Source: Roseimicrobium gellanilyticum (GTDB lineage: Bacteria; Verrucomicrobiota; Verrucomicrobiia; Verrucomicrobiales; Verrucomicrobiaceae). From it: a stretch of 64,000 nucleotides of DNA. Every line of letters starts with the position of its first letter. Within the stretch, counting starts at the first letter, position 1. The position numbers and the translations under genes are program-made. The DNA is taken from the NCBI RefSeq assembly GCF_003315205.1, contig NZ_QNRR01000004.1, forward strand, positions 372,001 through 436,000. Direction: 5' to 3'. Positions 17,277 to 48,724 of this stretch are shown one piece after another. Under the pieces are notes generated by a model. That model was not told the DNA's origin, ran no database searches, and was given only the letters and a program-made list of their open reading frames with translations.

Positions 17277-18515
17277 TCACTTCCCCGCTGCCGCACCATC
17301 ACCCACCTCCGCCACATACAGCCGAGTCCAGGTGCCGTTGCTCACATTGAAATAGATGCGCTTGCCATCCGCGCTGAAGACGGGGTGGGGATGGGAGCGC
17401 CGCCAGGAGCGGGCGCCGCCGTCGTTCTTGAAGGAATGCAGCAGGATGTGCTTCCCGCCGCGCGCATCGGCGAGCACGATGCCCCAGCTGTTCGCGTCGC
17501 CCCCGAACTTGTCCATGGTGGAGTCCGTGACGATGAGCTTCCCATCGGGACTGGCAGAGGGATGGTCACCGCGCACGGCGGGCAATTCGGGCAGGCGGGT
17601 GCCTTTGCCGTTACCGCTATCAAAGAGGGTGAACGAAGTCTCGACAATGGTCTTGCCATCCGGATGCCACGAGGGGTGGCCCCAGCGGTCGCTTTGATAA
17701 AGGAAGCGATTCTCCGCAATGCTGTAGCACACGAGGCCGAGGCGCTGGCTCGCGGCGCCGCCACGTGGGTCACGCGTGATGCCGGGGGCGGCGAGCTTGA
17801 AGAAGACACGGTCCGCCTTCGGACTCAGTACGGGGAAGAAGATGATGAAGGGCTTTCCCTGGAAGGCCTTGTCCACCCAGGGCGTGTACTTGTCCCGCAC
17901 GGCCTGCGCGGTGAGTACGGTTTTGATTTCGCCGGTGGCGGAGTTGCAGAGTTCCAGGTTGGTGTGCTCACCCGGGTCCCAATGCTGGCCGTAGATGGGA
18001 ACGAGGTCACCATTTGGCTGGCCCCAGCTGGAGAGACGGTTTTTGGCGAGGACGCGCTCCTTGCCGGTATCGAGATCCACGGCACCGACGAACCACGTGC
18101 CATCGCGCAGGCCGTGAAAGCTGATGCGCTTGCCGTTGGACAGCCACTGCTGGCAGGCGGCGCGATGCGCGTCCTCGGTTTCGAGATTCGTGACGAGCGT
18201 CTTCTCTTCACCCGTGGCGCGGTTGACGATGTGCACCTCACCGGTGTGGCCATTCAGCGCGGTGGAGGAGTAGAACAGGACTTGGGTGCCATCCGGGCTC
18301 TCCGGACACGTGTTGAAGTACGAGTGGATGCTGTGCCGCTCGGCGGTCTCTGGCAAGACAGAGCGAATCTTCACGCCACTGCGCCAGGGGGCGAGGGGAT
18401 CGTCTTTCGCTTCTTCCGCGTGAGCGGTGGTGGTGGTGCTCGTGAAGCACGTGAGGGCGAGTCCTGCGAAGGTGAGAAGCGCGGGCAGGGTGGTGTGGTG
18501 AGAAGCGCGTTTCAT
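17277..18515 (-). CDS. Exported TolB-like / oligogalacturonate lyase-like beta-propeller protein
   Basis: A 412-residue protein with a signal peptide (LPALLTFAGLALTCFTSTTTTAHA-like, shown here only in part) cleaved near residue 33. The mature part is built of WD40-like/PD40 blades: 'SPDGTQVLFYSS', 'LSNGKRISFHGL', 'HPDGKTIVETS', 'SPDGKLIVTDS' and 'SADGKRIYFNVS' appear in series, as in TolB and in the oligogalacturonide lyase-type propellers. Whether it binds or cleaves sugar cannot be decided; I do not see a definite catalytic set. The neighbouring FAD enzymes and glycosidase-like protein suggest a role in extracellular carbohydrate handling (inference). Confidence 0.7.
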   Translation of the reverse strand: MKRASHHTTLPALLTFAGLALTCFTSTTTTAHAEEAKDDPLAPWRSGVKIRSVLPETAERHSIHSYFNTCPESPDGTQVLFYSSTALNGHTGEVHIVNRATGEEKTLVTNLETEDAHRAACQQWLSNGKRISFHGLRDGTWFVGAVDLDTGKERVLAKNRLSSWGQPNGDLVPIYGQHWDPGEHTNLELCNSATGEIKTVLTAQAVRDKYTPWVDKAFQGKPFIIFFPVLSPKADRVFFKLAAPGITRDPRGGAASQRLGLVCYSIAENRFLYQSDRWGHPSWHPDGKTIVETSFTLFDSGNGKGTRLPELPAVRGDHPSASPDGKLIVTDSTMDKFGGDANSWGIVLADARGGKHILLHSFKNDGGARSWRRSHPHPVFSADGKRIYFNVSNGTWTRLYVAEVGDGAAAGK

Positions 18516-18553: not shown

Positions 18554-18641
18554 CAAAGTAACTTCGGCTTTAGCCGAATCAGGAGCGGGGTGGGTGAGAT
18601 ATGGCAGCCGACTGAGTTCGGCTAAAGCCGAAACTACTTTG
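18554..18641. repeat. Inverted repeat, family E, copy 2
   Basis: CAAAGTAACTTCGGCTTTAG (start of a 25-base arm at 18554) pairs with 18617-18641 at 23 of 25 positions. The sequence is a close relative of the 12419-12486 element. The right arm contains the TAG stop of the pentad-repeat ORF (18634-18636). Confidence 0.82.
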
Positions 18642-18948
18642 CTGGCGCCTCTGGCGCGATGGGTTGAGGAAGGATGCGTTCGGGTGCAATTGGCTGCGGC
18701 ATCACGGGCTGGGCCGGGATGATGTCCGGCACCAGAGGCGCGGATGTGACGGCATCTGGCACGATGACCTGCGGTGCGATTACATCGACCGCGATGGTCT
18801 CCGGAAGAATTCGGTCCGGCGCAATGAGGTCTGCCGTGAGCGGCTGCGGCGCGATCACCTGCGGCGTGATGGATGCTGGTGCGATCACATCGGGGGTGAT
18901 GGCATCCGGCACAATGGGAGCCGGGAGGATGGGATCGGGCGTGACCAT
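18634..18948 (-). CDS. Pentad-repeat protein, 20 copies of [IVL]-x-P-x-x
   Basis: A 104-residue reading frame that is almost entirely a five-residue repeat from residue 2 to 101. Examples are VTPDP, ILPAP, IVPDA, ITPDV, IAPAS and IAPDR. Position 1 is Ile, Val or Leu in 20 of 20 pentads and position 3 is Pro in 16 of 20. At the DNA level it is a degenerate 15-bp tandem repeat. The ATG begins 25 bp after the stop of the FAD-esterase gene on the same strand, and the stop follows directly after the last pentad. No signal peptide, membrane segment or known family is visible, and the ribosome binding site is weak. The plus strand is also open across the array, as expected for a repeat with period divisible by three, so coding status is only probable. 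Confidence 0.45.
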   Translation of the reverse strand: MVTPDPILPAPIVPDAITPDVIAPASITPQVIAPQPLTADLIAPDRILPETIAVDVIAPQVIVPDAVTSAPLVPDIIPAQPVMPQPIAPERILPQPIAPEAPAK

Positions 18949-18973: not shown

Positions 18974-21613
18974 CTACTTGAGGAACGAGAGCGATCTCAG
19001 AAACGCTTCAGACTTGGCCATGCATTCATCATACAGCGGGGCAGTGCGCATGAGGTATCCGTGGGCGCCGCCCTCGTGGATGACCAGTTCGCTGCGGTTC
19101 CCGGCCTTGAGCATCTCCTCGTGGAAACGCTGCGCTCCGGCGAAGGGAGTGACGGTGTCACCGGTGCCGTGGAAGGTGATGGTGGGCGGCCCACCGGGCT
19201 TCACGCGATCTGCAGGAGAGAGTTCCTTCCACCTCGCGCCGATTTTCGCATTGCCGTAGCCTTGCGCTGAGGTGTCGATGACGGGGAAGAGAAGGATGAG
19301 CGCATTCGGCGTGGAGGAGACACTGGTGTCTTCGCCTTCTTCATTCACATCATCGAAGAGCGCGGTGCTCACGGCGACATGGCCGCCGGCGGAGCCGCCG
19401 CTCACGACAATCTTCTGCGGGTCGATGCCGAACTCACTGGCATGAGCGCGCACGTAGCGCACGGCGGAGCGTCCGTCCTTCACACAGTCAAACACGGTGT
19501 TGGCAGGTTCCTTGCCCAGCAGGCGGTACTCCACGCTGATGCCCACCATGCCAAGCTTTGCGAAATGCTCGGCGAAAGGATACATCCGGCTGGCCTGGCC
19601 ACCGCGCCACCCACCTCCGTGGATGACGATGTAGCAGGGACGCTTGTCCGCAGACTTGAAGCCTTCCGGCTCGAAGACGTGCAGCATCAGGTCGCGGCTC
19701 ACCAGCTTCTTGTACGCGACCTTGCGCGTGGGCTTCAGTTGGATGGCGAGCTGGTCGACGTAGTCCGGGCCTTGGGGCTCGACAGCGGGTGCGGCTGTGG
19801 GCGCTGGAGCGGACGTGGACTTGGTTTCCGCCTTGTTTGTTTTCTTGGGTGCTCCCGGCGTGTCGAGATCCGCCTGCACCTTCTTCTCTCTCCATTCGAG
19901 GATTTGTTTGTCCTTCAGCAGTTGGGTGCGCAGCTTGGCCTGGTCCACCTTCTGCACGGGCACGTTGTCATCGATGGCGTAGCTCGCGGCGGTGGCGGCG
20001 CTCTGGCTGCTGATCATGAAGACGGGCTCCATGCGGATGCTGCTGAAGGCCGTGTGGCTCGCAGAGAGCGCGAAGGTGACGAAGAGATTCTCACACTCGG
20101 CCTGCTTCGGCACGATGGCGCCGTAGCCGATGGGGTAGGGCGGGGCGCCATCGCGGCCGAGGGCGGTCTTGCCTTCGCGGATGACCACGCCGTCCTTCAC
20201 AATGCGACGGATTTCATGCGTGTCCGTGCCGTAGGATCCGAGGCTCACGGAGTTCGGCGCGACTTCGCGGCCAAATGTGTGGTGCTCCGTCATTACGAGG
20301 TCGGAGACCATGCGGCGTGCTTCGCGGATGTAGAGCTGATGCGGCCAGCCGCCGTTGTCCTGGAATTCATCCTTCGGCAGGCCGAAGCGCTTCATGTCCT
20401 CCCGCACCTTCGCCGGCACCCGCGGATCGGTGGCGAGGAAGTAGAGGAGGCCGCGATGGTAGAGCTCATGCTCCTTCGCAATCTGCACGCGGCGGTCATA
20501 GCTGGCCTCGGGCCACTCCCAGCTCGCGCCGGGCATGTTCCCACCGAAAGTGGCGGTATTGAAGTCCCACTTGTCATTGGGCAGCGCATCATGCTTGGAG
20601 AACCAGCGCAGGTCCATGTCATCTCCCATGGCGATGCAGCCTGCGATGAAGCGCGCCACGAGTTCGTAGCGCTTCACATCATAACCCTCCGGAGCGATGA
20701 TGGGGATGCGGTCCGCGGCGGTGGTGAGGCAGAGGCGGAAGCAGTAGGCCTGCACGCCGGGAGCAGGCTCACCCGGAGTGCCGGGCGTGCCGGGATTGAG
20801 GAGAGGGAGCAATCCACTGCGCGGTTCGCCGGGTGATACATAGGGGTCGAGCGGCAGGTCGCGGTCCCACACGCCCTGGCCGCCGGGTACACGTCCACTG
20901 GGGCCGGGCTTGAGGTGGTTGGTGCGGGGCTGGTACTTCTCCGTGTAGTGGATGCCGTTGTAGGTCTCCCCGTACTTTGCATTGCCCTCGCGCATCAGGG
21001 TGTAGGACACCTTCGCGCGCGCCATGAGGTCACCCTCATAGGTGGCATCGATGAACATCTTTGCCCGCACCACGGTGCCGTCTTCCATGGTGAGCTCGGT
21101 GATGCGTGCACCGTCTTTCTTGGCACTGGCGAGGCGGGCATTGAAATGCACGGGGACCTTCGCCTCCTTCGCCATGTCGGTGAAGACCTTCTCCGCGATG
21201 TGCGGCTCGATGGAGTACGCGCCGCCGGTGGCGGGTCCGCCGCCCTTGCTCACGAAGGGCTGGTCCCACGCGAGTGTTTTCCCATAACTGGCGACGAGTC
21301 GCGTGAAGTACTCCCGCGCAATGCCACCCACCGTGCGTGGGTCACCGATGTCCACCGCGCTGAGGCCGCCGGAGGTCATGCCGCCGAGGTGCTTCCCGGG
21401 CTCGATGATGACGGCTTTCTTCCCCATGCGGGAAGCCTGCACAGCGGCAGCGACACCACCTGAGGTGCCACCATAGACACAGATATCTGCCGCGATGACG
21501 TCAGCAGCGCGGGTGTATGAGGAGGATGTGAAGGTGCAGGCCGCGAGCAGGGAGAGTGCAGCGGTCTTCAGGCGTGGAAAAAAGGGAGTGGGGGAAGACG
21601 GAAATCGGGCCAT
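18974..21613 (-). CDS. Exported FAD-dependent oxidoreductase fused to a C-terminal esterase
   Basis: An 879-residue two-domain protein. After a signal peptide (residues about 15-37) comes a FAD-binding start V-Y-G-G-T-S-G-G at about 45-53 and 'KHLGGMTSGGLSAVD', typical of the FAD_oxidored (PF12831-type) family. A Pro/Ala/Thr-rich linker at about 590-620 leads to an alpha/beta hydrolase of roughly 245 residues. That domain has H-G-G-G-W (oxyanion hole), G-G-S-A-G-G-H (nucleophile Ser), 'GTGDTVTP' (acid) and 'GGAHGY' (His), i.e. a complete hormone-sensitive-lipase/acetyl-esterase type triad. ATG 21613 is chosen because it opens the signal peptide; the open frame continues upstream through a repeat without character. 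One polypeptide may therefore oxidise and deacylate the same sugar-like substrate (inference). Confidence 0.8.
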   Translation of the reverse strand: MARFPSSPTPFFPRLKTAALSLLAACTFTSSSYTRAADVIAADICVYGGTSGGVAAAVQASRMGKKAVIIEPGKHLGGMTSGGLSAVDIGDPRTVGGIAREYFTRLVASYGKTLAWDQPFVSKGGGPATGGAYSIEPHIAEKVFTDMAKEAKVPVHFNARLASAKKDGARITELTMEDGTVVRAKMFIDATYEGDLMARAKVSYTLMREGNAKYGETYNGIHYTEKYQPRTNHLKPGPSGRVPGGQGVWDRDLPLDPYVSPGEPRSGLLPLLNPGTPGTPGEPAPGVQAYCFRLCLTTAADRIPIIAPEGYDVKRYELVARFIAGCIAMGDDMDLRWFSKHDALPNDKWDFNTATFGGNMPGASWEWPEASYDRRVQIAKEHELYHRGLLYFLATDPRVPAKVREDMKRFGLPKDEFQDNGGWPHQLYIREARRMVSDLVMTEHHTFGREVAPNSVSLGSYGTDTHEIRRIVKDGVVIREGKTALGRDGAPPYPIGYGAIVPKQAECENLFVTFALSASHTAFSSIRMEPVFMISSQSAATAASYAIDDNVPVQKVDQAKLRTQLLKDKQILEWREKKVQADLDTPGAPKKTNKAETKSTSAPAPTAAPAVEPQGPDYVDQLAIQLKPTRKVAYKKLVSRDLMLHVFEPEGFKSADKRPCYIVIHGGGWRGGQASRMYPFAEHFAKLGMVGISVEYRLLGKEPANTVFDCVKDGRSAVRYVRAHASEFGIDPQKIVVSGGSAGGHVAVSTALFDDVNEEGEDTSVSSTPNALILLFPVIDTSAQGYGNAKIGARWKELSPADRVKPGGPPTITFHGTGDTVTPFAGAQRFHEEMLKAGNRSELVIHEGGAHGYLMRTAPLYDECMAKSEAFLRSLSFLK

Positions 21614-21702
21614 CGTGAGGAGGTGCGTTTTTTGATGGAGAGTACGTGCCACAGTGAACGCGATGCTGGAAGGAGAATAGCTGGTCAAGTGGATTGACCA
21701 GC

Positions 21703-21834
21703 GGTGTGGCGTGGTGGTCCGCACACTCCGTGTGCGGTCAGGAGTCAGGTGGCTTGTTGTTGGTGATGTGTGCGGGGTGCCGCGGCAACTTTGCACCCAC
21801 CGCATACGGAGTATGCGGACCACCATCACACCAT
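21703..21834. repeat. Inverted repeat, family C, copy 1
   Basis: GGTGTGGCGTGGTGGTCCGC ... GTGTGCGGT at 21703-21738 pairs with ACCGCATACGGAGTATGCGG ... at 21799-21832. Each arm also contains a small internal hairpin (CGCACACTCCGTGTGCG). The stop codon of the glycosidase-like gene (21826) lies inside the right arm. A second copy is at 46522-46693. Confidence 0.82.
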
Positions 21835-26759: not shown

Positions 26760-27911
26760 ATGAGCACTGGACACACGAACTCCCGATTCTCCCTCACACG
26801 CTTCGCGGCGATTGTGATCAAGGAGTTCGTGCAGATGCGGAGGGACCGGCTCACGTTTGGCATGATGGTGGGCATTCCCATCCTGCAATTGGTGCTCTTT
26901 GGCTTCGCCATCAATTCGGACCCCAAGAACCTCCCTGCCGCCGTGCATCTGGCTGACCATGGTCCGCAGGCGCGCACCCTGCTGCAGGCCATCAAGAACA
27001 GCGGCTACTACCAGTTTGTGAGGGAGAGTGCGACCGAGCAGGAGGCGTTTGACCTGCTGGCACGGGGGGAGGTGCAGTTCGTGATTCAGATTCCGCAGAA
27101 CTTCACACGCGACTTCCTGCGCGGCGACCGGCCCACCCTGCTGGTCGAGGCGGATGCGACTGACCCGGGCGCCACCAGCAATGCCATCAGCTCCCTGCGC
27201 ACGCTGGTGAACAGCTCCCTGAAGAATGACCTCAAGGGGTCGCTGAGTTTCCTCGCGGGCACGGAGGGGCCGGTGGACCTGCGCATCCATGCGAAGTACA
27301 ATCCGGAGGCCATCACGCAGTACAACATTGTCCCCGGTCTCATGGGCGTGGTGCTCACCATGACCATGGTCATGATCACCTCGCTGGCCATCACGCGCGA
27401 GCGCGAGCGCGGCACCATGGAAAACTTGCTCGCCATGCCCACGCGTCCGCTGGAGGTGATGACGGGGAAGATCATCCCGTACATCTTCATGGGCTATGTG
27501 CAGGTCACGGTCATCTTGATCGCGGCGCATTACCTCTTCCGGGTGCCCATGTCCGGCAGTCTTGCGCTGCTGCTGCTCGCCGCCTTTGTCTTCATCGTGG
27601 CGAACCTGGCCGTGGGCATCATGTTCTCCACGCTGGCGAAGAACCAGCTTCAGGCCATGCAGATGTCCTTCTTCTTCTTCCTGCCGTCGCTGCTGTTGTC
27701 AGGGTTCATGTTTCCCTTCCGTGGCATGCCGGTGTGGGCGCAGATGCTGGGTGAAGTCTTTCCGCTGACGCACTTCCTGCGCATCATCCGCGGCATTCTT
27801 TTGAAGGGGAATGGCGCGATCGAGATGGGGTTGCAGCTCTGGCAGATTGCGCTCTTCGCCACGGTGGTGATGTTCATCGGGGTGAAGCGGTACAAGCAGA
27901 CGCTGGATTAG
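26760..27911 (+). CDS. ABC-2 type transporter permease
   Basis: A 383-residue protein with one N-terminal transmembrane helix (residues about 30-50), a large extracytoplasmic loop of about 130 residues, and five clustered helices in the C-terminal half. A conserved 'TRERERGTMENLLAMPTRPL' segment lies in the cytoplasmic loop, diagnostic of ABC-2 permeases of the YhhJ/YbhR type. It pairs with the ATPase upstream; a single permease gene instead of the two in the E. coli ybh operon suggests a homodimer. It ends the operon, and the stop is followed directly by heptad tandem repeats. Confidence 0.87.
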   Translation: MSTGHTNSRFSLTRFAAIVIKEFVQMRRDRLTFGMMVGIPILQLVLFGFAINSDPKNLPAAVHLADHGPQARTLLQAIKNSGYYQFVRESATEQEAFDLLARGEVQFVIQIPQNFTRDFLRGDRPTLLVEADATDPGATSNAISSLRTLVNSSLKNDLKGSLSFLAGTEGPVDLRIHAKYNPEAITQYNIVPGLMGVVLTMTMVMITSLAITRERERGTMENLLAMPTRPLEVMTGKIIPYIFMGYVQVTVILIAAHYLFRVPMSGSLALLLLAAFVFIVANLAVGIMFSTLAKNQLQAMQMSFFFFLPSLLLSGFMFPFRGMPVWAQMLGEVFPLTHFLRIIRGILLKGNGAIEMGLQLWQIALFATVVMFIGVKRYKQTLD

Positions 27912-27913
27912 TC

Positions 27914-27990
27914 AGTAGTCAGTAGTCAGTAGTCAGTAGTCATTGGTCATTGGTCATTGGTCATTGGTCATTGGTCATTGGTCATTGGTC
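27914..27990. repeat. Heptanucleotide tandem repeats, AGTAGTC x4 then ATTGGTC x7
   Basis: Four perfect AGTAGTC units (27914-27941) run without a break into seven perfect ATTGGTC units (27942-27990). They begin two bases after the TAG of the permease gene. Both units share A-x-x-x-GTC. Such heptad arrays are well known in some cyanobacteria; here the copy number may vary between strains. Confidence 0.95.
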
Positions 27991-28062
27991 AGGGAGGCGC
28001 ACGTCGAGGGCTGACTCCGCGAAGCAGGTGAACGTCAGGGTAAGGATAGGGAATCGGTGCCG

Positions 28063-46708: not shown

Positions 46709-48724
46709 TCACGGCGCCCTCCGTCCAAACTTCCGCTCCAGCTCCGGCAGTGAAATCTGTATCAGCGTCGGCCGGCCATGCGGGCAGCAGTAGGGCATTT
46801 CGCAGGCGAGGAGGTCTTCCAGGAGCTTCTTGAGCTCGGGGTCGCGGAGGTTGTCATTCGCCTTCACGGCGTGGCGGCAGACGGTGGTGGCGATCATGTC
46901 CTCGCCGAGGCGGAGGGCGGAGGTCTTGGAACCGGCGCCGGCGAGTTCGTCCAGCACGTCGCGGAGCAGGCCGAGGGGGTCATCGGTCTTCACGAAGGCG
47001 GGGAGGGCGTCGAGCTTGAAGGCGTTCGTGCCAAAGGGCTCGGCCTCGATGCCGAGCTTGTGCAGGACGGGGAGGTTGCGGCTGAGGATGTCGAAGTCCC
47101 GCGGGGTGGTCTGCATGGTGAGGGGGATGAGCAGGCGCTGGGAGGGGACGCCCTCGGTCTCCATGGCGCGACGCATCTGCTCGAAGAGCACGCGTTCATG
47201 GGCGGCATGCTGGTCCATGAGCACGAGGCCCTCGGCGTTTTCCATGAGGACGTAGAGCTTGTGCAGGACGCCGAGGATGCGGAAGGAGCCGGGGGAGGGG
47301 GTGGAGGATGAAGAGGGGAGAGTGGGAGACGGGGAGACGGGGAGACGGGGAGAGTCGGAGGCGGGGAGGGACGGAGATGGGGAGGGGGAGACGGGGAGAT
47401 CTGAGGTTGCTTCCAGCTCGGGAGCTGGAACAAGCGCCGGAACGGGGGAAGGGAACGGTGTGCTGCTGCGCGCGGTGACGACTGCGTCTACTTCGTCTTC
47501 CTCATGGGCAGGGGAGACAGGCGGGCGCGTGAGCTCTTGCTTTGCCAGGGGTGCGGCGAAGGGTGTTGCTGCGGCCCCAGCGGTCTGCCTCGGCATCGCA
47601 CTCCAATCCTTCCGCAACTCAAACTTCTCCCGCTCGGGAATCGCCAAGTCGGTCTGCACTTCCTCCGCGGCGGGAATCTGCGGGGCGCTACTCCGTGCCT
47701 GCGGCATGGGCATATGGCCGGTGGAGAGCCGGGTGGCGGCCTCCAGGGTGCGGCGCACGGCCTGCACCACGGCCTCGCGCACGCCGAAGCCATTGTGGAA
47801 GCGCACTTCCTTCTTCGCCGGGTGCACGTTGATATCGAAGGTGTCCGGCTCCATCTCCAGGTAGAGGAAGGTGATGGGGTGCTGGCCCTTCATCAGCGCC
47901 GTGTGGTAGGCCTCGCGCAGGCCGTAGGCGAGCGTGGGGCTGTCCACCGAGCGCTTGTTCAGGAAGGTGAACTGCATCTGGCGGTTTGCCCGGCTCACGC
48001 CGGGTCCGGCGATGTAGCCCTGCACGGTCACGCCCTGCAGGGTGAAGGGCTCCACTTCATAGAGTCGACGTGCCATGTCCGCACCGCACAGGCCCTCGAT
48101 GCGCGCCAGCAGGCTGTCCGTGGCAGGCAGGTGGAAGAGCACCTCGCCATCCCGCACCAGGGTGAAGGCGATTCGGGGATTCGCCACCGCATGCACGCGG
48201 AACTGCTGCTCCACGTGCGCGTACTCGGTTGCCTCCGAGCGGAGGAACTTGCGACGCGCCGGTATATTATAGAAGAGGGACCGCGCCTCCACCACGGTGC
48301 CGGGGGCTCCGCCGTAGTCGCGCACGGCGTGCATTTTTCCTCCATGCACTTCCACTTCGGTGCCTGCCAGGGCATCTGGCTCGCGAGTGGCGAGGCGGAA
48401 TCGGGACACACTCGCCACGCTGGGCATGGCCTCCCCACGGAAGCCAAGCGTGCGGATGGAGGCGAGGTCTTCCTTGGTGTGGATTTTGCTGGTCGCGTGG
48501 CGCTCCAGGCAGAGGAGCGCATCCTCGCGCCCCATGCCATGGCCATTGTCCACCACACGGATGAGCGAGGAGCCTCCGCGCTGCACATGCACTTCCACAT
48601 GTGTGGCACCGGCATCGATGCTGTTGTCCACCAGTTCACGTACTACTGCGGCGGGTCGCTCCACCACTTCACCCGCGGCCACCTGGCTTGCCAGTGCGTC
48701 GGGGAGAATGCGAATTCTGCTCAT
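46709..48724 (-). CDS. mutL: DNA mismatch repair protein MutL
   Basis: A 671-residue protein. The N-terminal GHKL ATPase shows R-E-L-V-D-N-S-I-D-A-G-A, 'VVDNGHGMG', 'RHATSKIHT' and 'TLGFRGEA', all hallmarks of MutL. A Ser/Pro-rich linker of about 140 residues follows (roughly 340-480). The C-terminal dimerisation domain has the endonuclease motif D-Q-H-A-A-H-E-R-V-L-F-E, the metal-binding C-P-H-G-R-P region near the end, and a nearby 'ATTVCRHAVK'. So this MutL should nick DNA itself, as expected for an organism lacking MutH. The linker is encoded by purine-rich short tandem repeats (47329-47352), discussed as a finding. It diverges from an IscA-type gene. Confidence 0.96.
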   Translation of the reverse strand: MSRIRILPDALASQVAAGEVVERPAAVVRELVDNSIDAGATHVEVHVQRGGSSLIRVVDNGHGMGREDALLCLERHATSKIHTKEDLASIRTLGFRGEAMPSVASVSRFRLATREPDALAGTEVEVHGGKMHAVRDYGGAPGTVVEARSLFYNIPARRKFLRSEATEYAHVEQQFRVHAVANPRIAFTLVRDGEVLFHLPATDSLLARIEGLCGADMARRLYEVEPFTLQGVTVQGYIAGPGVSRANRQMQFTFLNKRSVDSPTLAYGLREAYHTALMKGQHPITFLYLEMEPDTFDINVHPAKKEVRFHNGFGVREAVVQAVRRTLEAATRLSTGHMPMPQARSSAPQIPAAEEVQTDLAIPEREKFELRKDWSAMPRQTAGAAATPFAAPLAKQELTRPPVSPAHEEDEVDAVVTARSSTPFPSPVPALVPAPELEATSDLPVSPSPSPSLPASDSPRLPVSPSPTLPSSSSTPSPGSFRILGVLHKLYVLMENAEGLVLMDQHAAHERVLFEQMRRAMETEGVPSQRLLIPLTMQTTPRDFDILSRNLPVLHKLGIEAEPFGTNAFKLDALPAFVKTDDPLGLLRDVLDELAGAGSKTSALRLGEDMIATTVCRHAVKANDNLRDPELKKLLEDLLACEMPYCCPHGRPTLIQISLPELERKFGRRAP
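47329..47352. repeat. 8-bp tandem repeat inside mutL linker
   Basis: Three perfect ACGGGGAG units on the plus strand (47329-47336, 47337-47344, 47345-47352), preceded by the near-unit AGTGGGAG and followed after 40 bases by another GAGACGGGGAGA. They lie in the part of mutL that encodes the Pro/Ser linker. The unit length is not divisible by three. Confidence 0.9.

Follow-up and report, generated by a model that had tools for sequence, protein, structure and literature searches.

A 104-residue open reading frame (ORF) in Roseimicrobium gellanilyticum very probably encodes a real, rare, and lineage-restricted bacterial protein. The ORF is almost entirely made of five-residue units. By "the window," we mean the whole stretch of 64,000 nucleotides that we analysed; the ORF and the features around it are listed in Table 1.

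Table 1. The pentad-repeat ORF and adjacent features (positions in the window)
Feature	Position	Strand	Details
FAD-dependent oxidoreductase fused to BD-FAE-type esterase	18974..21829	-	upstream neighbour
Pentad-repeat ORF, 104 aa	18634..18948	-	ATG 18946-18948, TAG 18634-18636
Pentad array: twenty 15-bp units that encode [IVL]-x-[P/A/S/V]-x-x	18646..18945	-	
REPIN-like inverted palindrome pair	18555..18640		cores 18563-18578 and 18617-18632
PD40 beta-propeller protein	17277..18515	-	downstream neighbour

The ORF reads as ATG, twenty pentads, Pro-Ala-Lys, and TAG. Pentads 1-10 are VTPDP ILPAP IVPDA ITPDV IAPAS ITPQV IAPQP LTADL IAPDR ILPET, and pentads 11-20 are IAVDV IAPQV IVPDA VTSAP LVPDI IPAQP VMPQP IAPER ILPQP IAPEA. 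Our first-pass annotation had described twenty [IVL]-x-P-x-x pentads with an ATG before them and a TAG after them, starting 25 bp after the stop codon of the FAD-esterase gene, and all of this agrees with what we measured: an I, V, or L occupies slot 1 in 20 of 20 units, slot 3 is proline in 16 of 20 (the other four have A, V, S, and A), the ATG adjoins the array, PAK lies between the units and the TAG, and the distance is 25 bp. None of 20,000 residue shuffles reached either the slot 1 count or the slot 3 count. The composition of the protein includes 25 Pro, 16 Ile, and 16 Ala, and its net charge is -8. It has no Gly, no Cys, and no aromatic residues, and we saw no signal peptide.

The array has a protein-coding signature, which is clearest on the minus strand in the frame of the ORF. 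From unit to unit, the mean entropy at codon positions 1, 2, and 3 is 1.18, 0.63, and 1.57 bits. The T of the slot 1 codon is fixed in 20/20 units. In the codon for the proline slot, the second base is C in 19/20 units, while the third base of the proline codons takes all four values. When we compared the BLOSUM similarity of the units to column shuffles, z was 4.0 in the frame of the ORF and 0.2-2.6 in the other five frames. Synonymous codon usage is also host-like in the frame of the ORF, with z of about 4, the highest of the six frames.

At the level of DNA, the mean pairwise identity of the 15-bp units is 53%, adjacent units are no closer in sequence than distant ones, and the array is not in the list from Tandem Repeats Finder (score 30). 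The earlier description of a degenerate 15-bp tandem repeat therefore holds for the protein units, but the DNA is hardly a tandem repeat now. In other words, the DNA repeats have decayed and the protein rule has stayed. (Elsewhere in the window, the heptamer ATTGGTC occurs in twelve near-perfect copies at 27907-27991, and 47315-47399 has a purine-rich tandem repeat of 8/16 bp, of the GGGGAGAC type, in five to eleven copies.)

A profile search of 68 genomes from the family found the array in three of them: the window species and two genomes of the Verrucomicrobium group, which is another genus (G002 and G012). Searches at the level of the order, class, and phylum (384-388 genomes each) gave only weak matches, to other repeat proteins, and we found no relative in viral contigs. 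In G002 and G012, the ORF encodes 98 aa, with a Met directly before the array, 19 pentads, and a stop directly after it. Slot 1 is aliphatic in 18/19 units (the T of its codon is fixed in 18/19 units in each genome) and slot 3 is Pro, Ala, or Ser in 16-17 of 19. All three ORFs consist of Met, 19-20 [IVLM]-x-[PAS]-x-x pentads, and a stop.

The comparison of G002 and G012 shows purifying selection on the pentad ORF, as judged from one pair of relatives. Over 297 bp, the two are 84% identical with 0 indels, while the flanks have several indels. There are 17, 7, and 23 changes at codon positions 1, 2, and 3. From this single pair of genomes, we estimated dN of 0.13, dS of 0.34, and dN/dS of 0.38, and synonymous and non-synonymous changes differ (p=0.001). 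All the other frames contain a stop in one or both genomes. The first-pass annotation had proposed selection on the protein, had suggested comparing the two kinds of changes in each frame, and had named frameshifts at orthologous loci as evidence against the protein; the unit-to-unit entropy and BLOSUM similarity, the host-like codons, and this pair all support its proposal, and the pair has no frameshift. Hypervariable copy number is not supported, as both members of this one pair have 19 units.

How the window protein is related to the Verrucomicrobium proteins is less clear. It aligns to them far better than shuffled residues do, but when residues are shuffled within slots, p is 0.17-0.34, so the similarity does not extend beyond the pentad rule. 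Nor is there any synteny in common: the Verrucomicrobium ORFs lie between a 375-aa gene and a large gene (by inspection, HEAT-repeat/cytochrome-type dehydrogenase-like), and the window's neighbours differ. With the rule alone in common, common descent and convergence are not separable. At the locus itself, there is no orthologue to compare. A congener (G001) has flanking genes that are 91-92% identical to the window's, but the space between those two genes is unrelated sequence without the array, and the family-wide profile search found no pentad array elsewhere in that genome. (The equivalent spacer in G001, at L067:2290-2380, holds a different palindromic element, GGGGACAGGAATGTCCCC ... GGGGGCATTCCTGCCCCC.)

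The 3' end of the window ORF overlaps another kind of repeat. Directly after the array, two palindromes (TTCGGCTNNAGCCGAA) form an inverted pair and lie 54 bp apart. The genome has 23 copies of this core, several of them as inverted pairs, while a control with the reversed pattern gave zero. REPINs are described in PMC3116915, and the flanking element has their form, with two inverted palindromic REP units and dispersed copies. In most copies of the core, the edge AAAGTAGY lies outside the palindrome (AAAGTAGY-TTCGGCTNNAGCCGAA). In the window's copy, this edge forms the end of the pentad ORF: its AAG is the last Lys codon and its TAG is the stop. Because both codons lie inside the REPIN-like element, that element supplies the stop of the ORF, and it may have cut back a previous 3' end. 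This is a case of a REPIN-like element giving a neighbouring gene its stop codon.

As for expression, no ribosome-binding site is visible at the window ORF and we found no promoter-like site there, so its mRNA would most simply come from read-through of the esterase gene, and the ORF is probably translated from that longer transcript. No functional tie to the FAD-esterase is required: both the esterase and the PD40 gene are present in the congener, which lacks the array, and the Verrucomicrobium array is elsewhere. In G002, a promoter-like TTGTCG-N16-TAGAAT (L080:4948-4982) ends 7 nt before the ATG of the pentad ORF, and our scan of 700 bp turned up no other site of this kind. In G012, TTGTCG is kept, and the second hexamer is weaker at about the same distance. 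The Verrucomicrobium ORF appears to have its own putative promoter, and at 7 nt from the ATG, the mRNA would be nearly leaderless.

Even if the ORF is translated, it might be dispensable. A young ORF could have formed by an in-frame repeat expansion that was open by chance, and chance could have kept it in a few genomes. The patchy distribution, the lack of fixed synteny, the congener without the array, and the lack of a known partner would fit this, and so would the stop codon that was borrowed from the REPIN-like element. But second codon positions have been kept even though the units are already so dissimilar as DNA, and the low dN/dS and intact length of the Verrucomicrobium pair also argue against it. 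We consider this explanation somewhat unlikely.

Our tentative reading, whose chances we would put at not quite even, is that this is a genuine acidic, proline-rich, disordered protein of 19-20 pentads that acts as a multivalent spacer or binder. Proline fits poorly into regular helix and sheet. The AlphaFold2 model of the monomer has no secondary structure (pLDDT 63.5, pTM 0.11), which is weak evidence as the alignment had only two sequences. Together, proline in most pentads and the lack of structure in the model point to an extended, mostly unstructured acidic chain. The protein is presumably cytoplasmic, given that we saw no signal peptide, and its regularly spaced aliphatic-x-Pro sites might make repeated weak contacts with some partner. 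It seems to be limited to a small number of members of a single Verrucomicrobia family, where its distribution is patchy and its neighbourhood is not fixed.

A bolder version, which we think is quite doubtful, is that the self-contained polypeptide represents a new class of protein repeat. This class would be set solely by the rule [I/V/L]-x-[P/A]-x-x, with purifying selection acting on the rule more than on the order of residues, and it would form a fold or multivalent scaffold that has not been described in bacteria. The protein is a clean example of one that consists solely of a short repeat rule, and provided that it is expressed, it would serve as a compact model of repeat-only proteins that are selected for their periodicity and not their exact sequence.

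The main structural rival to a disordered chain is an oligomeric stalk. The pentads could fold as a stalk or a solenoid in which every fifth residue is aliphatic and faces the core, similar to the [IV]TxxKIAxxA stalk repeats of phage tail and secreted proteins (for example, a tail protein of Marinitoga camini virus 2 and the verrucomicrobial L077, L079, and L116). The alternating ITPxx/IAPxx units do resemble ITADK-IAAGA repeats, several of the remote profile matches are stalks of this type, and one phage tail protein was matched in frame. On the other hand, there is no significant match in PHROGs or Pfam, the proline-rich slot 3 is different, the head and anchor domains are absent, and the AlphaFold2 model, which is of a monomer only, has no structure. 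Folding of this kind is rather unlikely, and a disordered spacer or binder remains our preferred reading.

The first-pass annotation knew of no family with this pattern, and the same is true of Pfam, NCBIfam, PHROGs, and the PDB. Neither Pfam nor NCBIfam gave a match for the pentad protein, the top matches in PHROGs were not significant (E of 0.15-0.25), and searching the PDB by sequence gave no meaningful match. (The PDB matches, to pentatricopeptide repeats, a ligand-binding receptor, and a short tail fibre, had E of 0.3-1.1 and are due to chance.) We also found nothing in the literature about the pentad repeat. We would class the protein as small, rich in proline, and made of repeats only, and it lies outside the family libraries we searched.

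Other kinds of repeats can mimic this pattern when they are read in another frame. The tblastn matches in phages and plasmids were mostly to pentapeptide-repeat genes, and those that we checked (H3, H4, H9, and H13) are shadows of A(D/N)LXX, read in the wrong frame or from the other strand. A phage pentapeptide-repeat gene (L083:2838-3554) illustrates how these genes can mimic I-x-P-x-x: a second frame runs open through its repeat and reads (ICPGP)n. The Entomospira match (H1) is on the strand opposite a glycosyltransferase gene. The second match in the window's own genome comes from reading the GSTTS array of a pilin-like protein in antisense; (GSTTS)n arrays in pilin-like proteins give VVLPL on the antisense strand and are a recurrent source of false aliphatic-x-Pro matches (L002:1501-1677 and L072:2946-3257).

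Could the window ORF be such a shadow, with the real product encoded by the other strand or by a different frame? Besides the precedent from pentapeptide-repeat genes, one frame on the opposite strand has the same wobble positions and is open across most of the array. If that frame were the coding one, its second codon positions would be more variable than its first, contrary to the usual pattern in proteins. By inspection, A(D/N)LXX is in no frame of the window's array, and each alternative frame is closed in one or both of the Verrucomicrobium pair. A stronger codon signal on the plus strand, which had been named at the outset as grounds for discarding the protein, did not appear: the codon and BLOSUM signals are weaker in all other frames. 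A product from another frame or strand is highly improbable. It is similarly far-fetched that the array works as DNA (as a structural repeat or one that binds protein), with the reading frame as a by-product: the array is intergenic and beside the REPIN-like palindromes, but the units are poorly conserved, conservation tracks the codon positions, and third positions vary the most.

A genuine pentad protein can be compared to several known systems. Pentapeptide-repeat proteins (A[DN]LXX) have the same five-residue period, but the window protein lacks the A(D/N)L motif and a match in Pfam. The [IV]TxxKIAxxA stalk repeats also have an aliphatic residue every five residues, with a small residue at position 3, but they are in large multi-domain proteins with Gly, Lys, and Asn and mostly without Pro. 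Elastin-type VPGXG and mycobacterial Erp PGLTS are pentads that contain proline. The window protein differs from both in having no Gly (elastin-like repeats have it at two pentad positions), in placing Pro two residues after the aliphatic residue, and in that no export signal was seen. Another pentad repeat is in a protein of about 1500 aa from genome G592 (L089:3-4493, minus strand), which has a very long array of VAPQA/VTAQP and adjoins a gene for a type III secretion-type ATPase. It is possibly of the proline-rich secretion-ruler type. Its pentads are [IV]-x-[P/A]-Q-x and are also rich in Pro, but there are very many of them in a giant, Gln-rich protein with long non-repeat flanks, from a distant relative. 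The profile match (E of 2.5e-5) likely reflects the repeat rule only. Finally, the 98-aa Verrucomicrobium proteins have Pro in only 9 of 19 slot 3 positions, as well as another neighbourhood and an unrelated order of residues, but they share the Met-array-stop layout, the aliphatic slot 1, and the absence of any other domain.
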